DNA from: an uncultured Planctomycetia bacterium
GTDB lineage: Bacteria > Planctomycetota > Phycisphaerae > FEN-1346 > JAACEH01
DNA: 56,110 bases
NCBI GenBank assembly: GCA_903929765.1
Contig: CAIYVX010000058.1
Coordinates: 1-56,110 of the forward strand
Reading direction: 5' to 3'
Shown here: positions 48,907-54,792 of the stretch, one piece after another
Layout: each line of letters opens with the position of its first letter
Position numbering within the stretch: position 1 is the first letter of the stretch
Position numbers and translations under genes: made by a program
The notes under the pieces: model-generated
Database searches by the model: none
The model's input: the letters and a program-made list of their open reading frames with translations, nothing else
What the model was told of the DNA's origin: nothing

Positions 48907-50500
<1,594 letters not shown>

Positions 50501-50717: not shown

Positions 50718-50794
<77 letters not shown>

Positions 50795-50844
50795 GTTAAT
50801 TCTGAGGAAGTTCGAGTGGTTTTGTCCAGGGTTGGTGGGTAAGG

Positions 50845-51042
50845 ATGACGGTCGTGGCTCTCTCGGACTGGGTGAGTTCGATCTTCTGGTTCTTCGGCGG
50901 GGTCGGCGTGGCCGTGGCTGTGGTCGGCGCCTTCCGCCTCCTGAAGGCCAAGCGGCAACGGGAATACCAGCAGGAGCTGGAGGCCCGCGATCGGAAAGAA
51001 GGCGGCGCCGGAGAGCGCGTAACGAAAACTCCGGGGACGTAG
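50845..51042 (+). CDS. Small membrane protein inside the rRNA spacer
   Basis: A 65-residue ORF between the two tRNA genes. One transmembrane helix (about 12-32, IFWFFGGVGVAVAVVGAF) is followed by a charged helical tail (RLLKAKRQREYQQELEARDR). AAGG adjoins the ATG; a GTG three codons on (50854) has a better-spaced AAGGATG. Codon third positions are GC-rich as in real genes. The TAG stop (51040-51042) lies inside the tRNA-Ala gene. Translation from an rRNA transcript would be unusual, so it could also be a chance ORF. Confidence 0.5.
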   Translation: MTVVALSDWVSSIFWFFGGVGVAVAVVGAFRLLKAKRQREYQQELEARDRKEGGAGERVTKTPGT

Positions 51043-51108
51043 CTCAGTTGGGAGAGCGACTGGTTTGCAACCAGTAGGTCGGCGGTTCGATTCCGCTCGT
51101 CTCCACCA
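51033..51108 (+). tRNA. tRNA-Ala (TGC)
   Basis: A 76-nt cloverleaf with acceptor GGGGACG/CGTCTCC (one G-T pair), anticodon loop TTTGCAA (TGC) and encoded ACCA. Its first 10 bases overlap the end of the small ORF. Confidence 0.97.
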
Positions 51109-51283
51109 GATTGTAGGGTGGCTGCTTGCAGCCACGCTGATTAAAGTAAAAAGTTTAAAGTAAAAAGTATAAAGTGAAAAGCAAAGACAAGAAGCGTGAG
51201 CTTGAGGCCTTGGGCCTGAAGGTTGAGGCAGAGGTTTCAAGCCTGCGTTTCTGGCAGGAATGAGCGTTAGGCTCGACGTGCGG

Positions 51284-51437: not shown

Positions 51438-51445
<8 letters not shown>
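51284..51445 (+). other. boxA-like site and left arms of the 23S processing stem
   Basis: CTCTTTGACAATC (51284-51296) is a boxA-like site. GACAATCCAAT (51290-51300) and GCGAATCTCG (51303-51312) pair with ATTGGATTGTC (54550-54560) and CGAGATTCGC (54537-54546). ACAATTGTGGTCAAGT (51430-51445) pairs perfectly with 54441-54456. These arms enclose 23S and are likely RNase III substrates. Confidence 0.85.
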
Positions 51446-54448
<3,003 letters not shown>

Positions 54449-54680
54449 ACAATTGTTGTTGTCTCCTCCGCCGATGCGAAGCGGGGAGAAACCAACGATT
54501 TCGCATCTAAGCACACAGATGAGTTTCTTCTGTTCGCGAGATTCGCAAAATTGGATTGTCCAAGCGCCGCTGGAGGTCGCCCGTTTTTGGGGGCCTTCGG
54601 GGCGTGACAAGTGAATAAGCAATATTAGCGGGCGGCGCCTGCGTCTGGTTATTCGGGGCGGCGCTGCTCGTAATAGGAAT

Positions 54681-54792
54681 TTTCCGGCGGTAAGACGAGC
54701 GGGGAAACACCTGATCCCATTCCGAACTCAGCAGTTAAGCCCGTCTCGGCCGATGATAGCGCAACAAACGCGAAAGTAGGTGGCTGCCGGGA
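54681..54792 (+). rRNA. 5S ribosomal RNA
   Basis: Helix I arms TTTCCGGCGG and TGGCTGCCGG pair; GAACACCTGATCCCATTCCG-like core (AAACACCTGATCCCATTCCG) and AACTCAGCAGTTAAGCCC are typical of 5S. Ends are approximate. Confidence 0.92.

Follow-up and report, generated by a model that had tools for sequence, protein, structure and literature searches.

A putative small membrane-protein gene in the tRNA-Ile/tRNA-Ala spacer of a planctomycete rRNA operon, and candidate selenoprotein genes in the same spacer of related families

Results

The tRNA-Ile/tRNA-Ala spacer of the window operon contains a 65-codon frame

The window, the whole 56,110-nt stretch analysed here (genome G000, family f1), carries a complete rRNA operon, in which ARAGORN and Rfam placed the genes in the order 16S - tRNA-Ile - tRNA-Ala - 23S - 5S (Table 1). 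This is the gene order of the canonical operon; however, the Ile-Ala spacer measures 238 nt and contains an ORF, whereas the spacers of many members of the class (Phycisphaerae-type planctomycetes) measure about 20-110 nt. The initial annotation had described a 65-codon frame with one transmembrane helix, a charged tail and a stop inside tRNA-Ala, and all of these features were recovered. The ATG lies about 50 nt past tRNA-Ile, and the TAG stop codon (51040-51042) falls in the D arm of tRNA-Ala. A 197-codon frame on the antisense strand of the spacer overlaps both tRNA genes; its 197-aa translation matched no Pfam family. Just 3' of tRNA-Ala, a dispersed repeat was observed (51104-51190; ggctgcttgcagccacgctg...taaaaagtttaaag), short pieces of which occur more than 20 times across the window genome.

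Table 1. Genes of the window operon and elements of the spacer frame.
Feature	Position	Strand	Basis
16S rRNA	48907..50497	+	Rfam RF00177, 1460 bits
tRNA-Ile (GAT)	50718..50794	+	ARAGORN, Rfam
Possible ribosome-binding stretch cagggttggtgggta	50827..50841	+	anti-SD duplex -9.5 kcal/mol
65-codon putative small membrane-protein ORF, ATG start	50845..51042	+	coding statistics; no Pfam/NCBIfam family
Predicted transmembrane segment, residues 10-30 (VSSIFWFFGGVGVAVAVVGAF)	50872..50934	+	Kyte-Doolittle 19-mer 2.04; AF2
Charged tail, probably cytoplasmic (RLLKAKRQREYQQELEARDRKE)	50935..51000	+	sequence; predicted by the positive-inside rule
tRNA-Ala (TGC)	51033..51108	+	ARAGORN, Rfam
23S rRNA	51438..54450	+	Rfam RF02541
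5S rRNA	54683..54792	+	Rfam RF00001

The frame has the codon statistics of a gene

We scored the frame by its codon log-likelihood ratio (LLR). The LLR was 19.2 bits. Among fragments of real genes this value falls at the 58th percentile, and 2.9% of off-frame fragments attain it; all five alternative frames of the spacer scored lower. The GC contents at the first, second and third codon positions were.69/.48/.82, against.68/.47/.77 in 225 training genes of the window genome, in agreement with the GC-rich third positions reported earlier. When the spacer was shuffled 3000 times with its dinucleotide composition kept, 1358 of the shuffles (45%) contained a frame of at least 65 aa, so the length of the frame is not evidence for coding. 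None of the 3000 shuffles matched its codon score, and none yielded a helix with a Kyte-Doolittle (KD) value of 2.0 or more. Across 448 kb of the window genome, only two further gene-free ORFs of 50-90 aa equalled the frame on codon score and helix, each of them resembling a genuine small membrane protein.

The anti-SD duplex 5' of the ATG (-9.5 kcal/mol) lies in the range of -8 kcal/mol or lower, which is reached at 20% of genes versus 6% of random sites. An AF2 single-sequence model of the product contained only one long helix (residues 2-52), with a pLDDT of about 90 at residues 11-30. The coding signal climbed to about codon 58 and was flat across the final 7 codons; thus, the end of the frame, next to the stop in the tRNA, may be a recent or incidental addition. 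Taken against the shuffles, codon score and helix give good support to the earlier proposal that a small membrane protein is encoded within this spacer.

No relatives of the frame were found in the class

No homolog of the frame was detected among 396-397 genomes of the class, and nothing real was retrieved from 61 relatives, GTDB contigs and viral contigs. Weak matches were set aside; none of them adjoins spacer tRNAs. Pfam and NCBIfam contained no family for it, and no parent gene was found within the window genome. The sole same-family genome examined (G001) is an assembly without an rRNA operon. Two relatives from the order that do have the operon (G002 and G006, of another family) have spacers of 71 and 178 nt, which lack an ORF.

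The same spacer holds membrane-protein genes in other families

The arrangement had been called rare, which was not borne out: in other families of the class, the same spacer holds small membrane-protein genes with conserved frames and synonymous bias. According to their named records, the carriers are Phycisphaerae/Planctomycetes. In family f10, a conserved multi-helix membrane protein of about 150 aa is encoded in the Ile-Ala spacer (L102 in G015:C52; L233/L234 in G024). The proteins of these two genera share 51%/44% identity, with pN/pS values of.32/.50 and.43/.52, and match no Pfam family; the G024 gene is divided between two contig ends at the spacer.

Families f3, f14 and f19 share a different occupant, a single-helix protein of 30-37 aa (about 33) ending in (R/K)GGG-UGA-G-P-x-x-C-x-stop. 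In f19, a one-helix ORF of 26-29 codons up to the UGA adjoins tRNA-Ile in 20 genomes with the relevant locus, and GGAG-like motifs lie 5' of most of these ORFs; in G105, where the tRNA pair is split, a one-helix ORF lies beside the lone tRNA-Ala. In f14, the microprotein gene lies within the full tRNA pair in seven genomes and follows a single, unpaired tRNA-Ile in one, and further genomes carry it free-standing, outside tRNA/rRNA operons, with no neighbour context shared among these copies. Several f14 members have the tRNA pair with a short spacer and no ORF, and the microprotein gene is therefore optional. In f3, it was present in G123, G265, G330 and a Phycisphaerales MAG. Purifying selection acts on these frames, as seen for example in 6 synonymous against 0 nonsynonymous changes (pN/pS 0.1-0.55). 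The conserved spacer ORFs of relatives stop within the spacer, whereas the window ORF stops in tRNA-Ala. Because three related families keep a conserved membrane protein of about 33 residues there, the tRNA-Ile/tRNA-Ala spacer appears to be a recurrent home for membrane microproteins in the class.

The unit in f19 and f3 is tRNA-Ile/ORF/tRNA-Ala/23S, with no adjacent 16S. At L228, L219 and L226, which belong to these families, the tRNA-Ile/tRNA-Ala pair is followed by 23S-5S and no 16S lies upstream within several kb; the 16S there is unlinked.

The UGA codon of the microproteins probably encodes selenocysteine

The UGA of the f3, f14 and f19 microproteins is very probably read as selenocysteine (Sec), because it is universal, the sequence past it evolves like codons, a covarying hairpin follows at a fixed distance, and SelB or tRNA-Sec occurs in each carrier tested for both. 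TGA ends the frame in every microprotein copy, compared with 53% (54/101) of the genes in the same loci. Read-through past the UGA gives G-P-x-x-C-[D/G]-stop: Gly follows in 34/34 copies, Pro (encoded by any of its four codons) occurs in 22/34, Cys occurs in 21/34, and a second in-frame stop lies at codon 7 past the UGA in 33/34. Over the first five codons past the UGA, pS was.71 and pN.37 in frame, while the two values were equal in the two shifted frames. In f19, two members have no Cys past the UGA; in both, a Cys directly precedes it. Two stand-alone f14 genes (L223 and L224, in G046 and G183) end in GGGG-UGA-Lys-Ser/Asn-Cys-stop, that is, with a UxxC end, and their C/G-rich hairpin overlaps the stop.

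The SECIS-like hairpin has a 7-bp stem and a loop of CGUGN or similar, and it begins 15 nt past the UGA. Of its cells, 93.7% were paired, and double changes numbered 41 versus 13 in shuffles, a count reached in 0/500 shuffles. Its position is also kept in microprotein copies outside rRNA operons. SelB scored over the cut-off in 25/27 carriers tested, and tRNA-Sec was found in 33/39; each carrier tested for both has SelB and/or tRNA-Sec, and G227 and G243, which have no tRNA-Sec, were outside the SelB test. No UGA gene was found in the sampled genomes of the Sec-less families f1, f10, f8, f9, f11 and f20. When a profile was searched against 397 class genomes, the first 32 matches each contained exactly one TGA.

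A phylum-wide sample contained no UGA form outside the class, and no homolog with Cys in place of Sec was present in the class or phylum samples. Weak Cys-like profile matches in G005, G022, G043 and G210 proved to be other-frame or unrelated translations, and a pattern match in Chloroflexi came from another gene, read in a different frame. The family matched no NCBIfam model.

If the UGA were an ordinary stop, the hairpin would serve RNA processing and would not be a SECIS element. The lack of a homolog with Cys for UGA fits that reading, which we nevertheless regard as highly unlikely: the codon-like evolution past the UGA, the fixed second stop, the near-universal Gly and frequent Cys, and the presence of UGA in all copies speak against it, as do the Sec machinery of the carriers and a hairpin that stays in place in copies outside rRNA operons. 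As selenoproteins, the microproteins would probably act in membrane-anchored thiol/selenol redox.

The window ORF lies outside the UGA microprotein family

The window ORF showed no similarity to the UGA microprotein profile (hhalign probability 0.3%), and genome G000 was unmatched by the microprotein profiles A3 and A4. The ORF has no UGA, GGG end, Cys or hairpin. Its genome has no SelB over the cut-off and no tRNA-Sec, the best candidate reaching 52 bits against at least 61 for true matches. The window ORF therefore stands outside this family. As in f10, the slot is probably occupied by a small membrane protein of another kind.

Discussion

Readings of the window ORF

We put the probability at about two in three that the window ORF is a genuine gene, encoding a small membrane protein with a single pass, and one case of a habit of these planctomycetes of placing such genes in this spacer. 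Against this reading count the missing homologs among the class genomes, the lack of similarity to the microprotein profile, the stop inside tRNA-Ala, the final 7 codons without a gene-like signal and the two relatives from the order whose spacers have no ORF. That the frame is open by chance, in a transcribed, GC-rich spacer that has an RNA role only, is the least probable of the other readings, in our view very improbable. Long frames do arise often by chance, as 45% of the shuffles demonstrated, and the antisense strand carries an even longer one (197 codons); but the codon score and helix were attained in 0/3000 shuffles, and the third-position bias together with the anti-SD site fit a gene. 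The frame might also derive from DNA that formerly encoded a protein, either a decayed gene or a fragment of one, which was caught in the spacer and keeps gene-like codons but is no longer functional. We consider this unlikely, though it deserves to be taken seriously: the ORF is an orphan among the 396-397 class genomes, borrows its stop from tRNA-Ala and loses its coding signal over the last 7 codons, and spacers of the class do acquire foreign DNA, as the GIY-YIG gene of G033 illustrates. Against a captured fragment stand the ATG at a good SD-like site, the intact frame, the layout of a complete small membrane protein (a helix close to the N-terminus followed by a charged tail) and the absence of a parent gene from its own genome.

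The window ORF could also descend from a UGA microprotein: after selenocysteine loss, the helix would have been kept and the GGG-U-G end swapped for the charged tail. The slot is the same, with the start at the same distance from tRNA-Ile (about 50 nt) and a helix of similar length, and f1 lacks SelB and tRNA-Sec while its sister family f2 retains both. However, there is no detectable similarity and no GGG motif, Cys or hairpin, and the microprotein is absent from those f2 relatives in which Sec persists, which makes this origin distinctly improbable.

Proposed use of the spacer

We infer the expression and topology of the spacer proteins from sequence. The product of the window ORF is predicted to be a single-pass membrane protein whose positive charges would place the C-terminus in the cytoplasm. 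The ORF would be part of the rRNA precursor transcript, and its translation, on that precursor or on a spacer piece, would take place before tRNA maturation is complete. RNase P cleavage at tRNA-Ala (51032/51033) would strip off the stop codon; therefore, translation would either precede tRNA-Ala maturation or end as on a non-stop message. The conserved ORFs of relatives, which stop within the spacer, would escape this difficulty. Only its position and presumed co-transcription suggest a link to ribosome synthesis; the f19 and f3 units have no 16S beside them, and some f14 copies stand alone.

More broadly, the spacer probably serves these planctomycetes as a place for small membrane-protein genes, with the window as one instance. 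In families that keep the selenocysteine machinery, the occupant would be a selenoprotein of 30-37 aa (a helix, then GGG-U-G-P-x-x-C); in the Sec-less families f1 and f10, it would be an unrelated, UGA-free membrane protein. It is possible, though doubtful, that the Ile-Ala spacer of Phycisphaerae is a dedicated site tying a tiny membrane protein, mostly a new selenoprotein family of about 33 aa, to tRNA/rRNA transcription, with the window ORF as the version of a Sec-losing lineage. The conserved selenoprotein-like microprotein family is a stronger and more novel result than the window ORF.

Few parts of bacterial genomes have been sequenced as often as the rRNA/tRNA spacer, yet this family of membrane microproteins with probable selenocysteine was missed, because annotation pipelines call no protein genes in rRNA/tRNA spacers and cut proteins at UGA. 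If the family is real, a membrane redox peptide would be made in proportion to stable-RNA transcription, its shortest members, of about 30 aa, would rank with the smallest selenoproteins known, and a spacer used in phylogeny would be protein-coding.

Comparison with known systems

A 2026 table of bacterial selenoproteins of the SelB/SECIS/tRNA-Sec system comprises 119 families, among which the UGA microproteins are missing (PMC13188914). Like bacterial selenoproteins, the microproteins have an in-frame UGA, a hairpin 15 nt past it, a Cys near the putative Sec, and SelB and tRNA-Sec in the genome. Unlike those listed, they are only about 33 aa long, have a single helix and are encoded in a tRNA/rRNA spacer; the window ORF itself differs from bacterial selenoproteins in having no UGA. 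Eukaryotic SelK and SelS have a single helix, are Gly-rich and carry Sec near the C-terminus. The microproteins share with them one N-terminal helix, a glycine run and U-G near the C-terminus, which is a resemblance only; they are much shorter, and bacterial.

Protein genes are known in stable-RNA operons, for example in E. coli tyrT/tpr and as homing endonuclease genes carried by introns of rRNA or tRNA. The spacer frames would likewise be co-transcribed with tRNA or rRNA; unlike these cases, they lie between two spacer tRNAs, encode membrane proteins and recur across families. The openly available literature that we searched contained no paper on protein genes in the Ile-Ala spacer or on a selenoprotein in an rRNA operon.

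Other elements in spacers and rRNA genes of the class

The Ile-Ala spacer of G033:C11 (L110/L028), between tRNA-Ile at 228-303 and tRNA-Ala at 754-826, contains a 94-aa GIY-YIG ORF (PF01541, E 1e-12), together with an additional tRNA of weak score at 590-656 (45 bits). In G265:C3 (f3), a group I intron (RF00028) was located within the 23S rRNA gene (L220, 396-643, minus strand). The Ile-Ala spacers of f11 and f2 (L024-L027, L105, L117 and others) contain short tandem units, e.g. gattgcggattgcgg, which are often mirrored at the opposite end.
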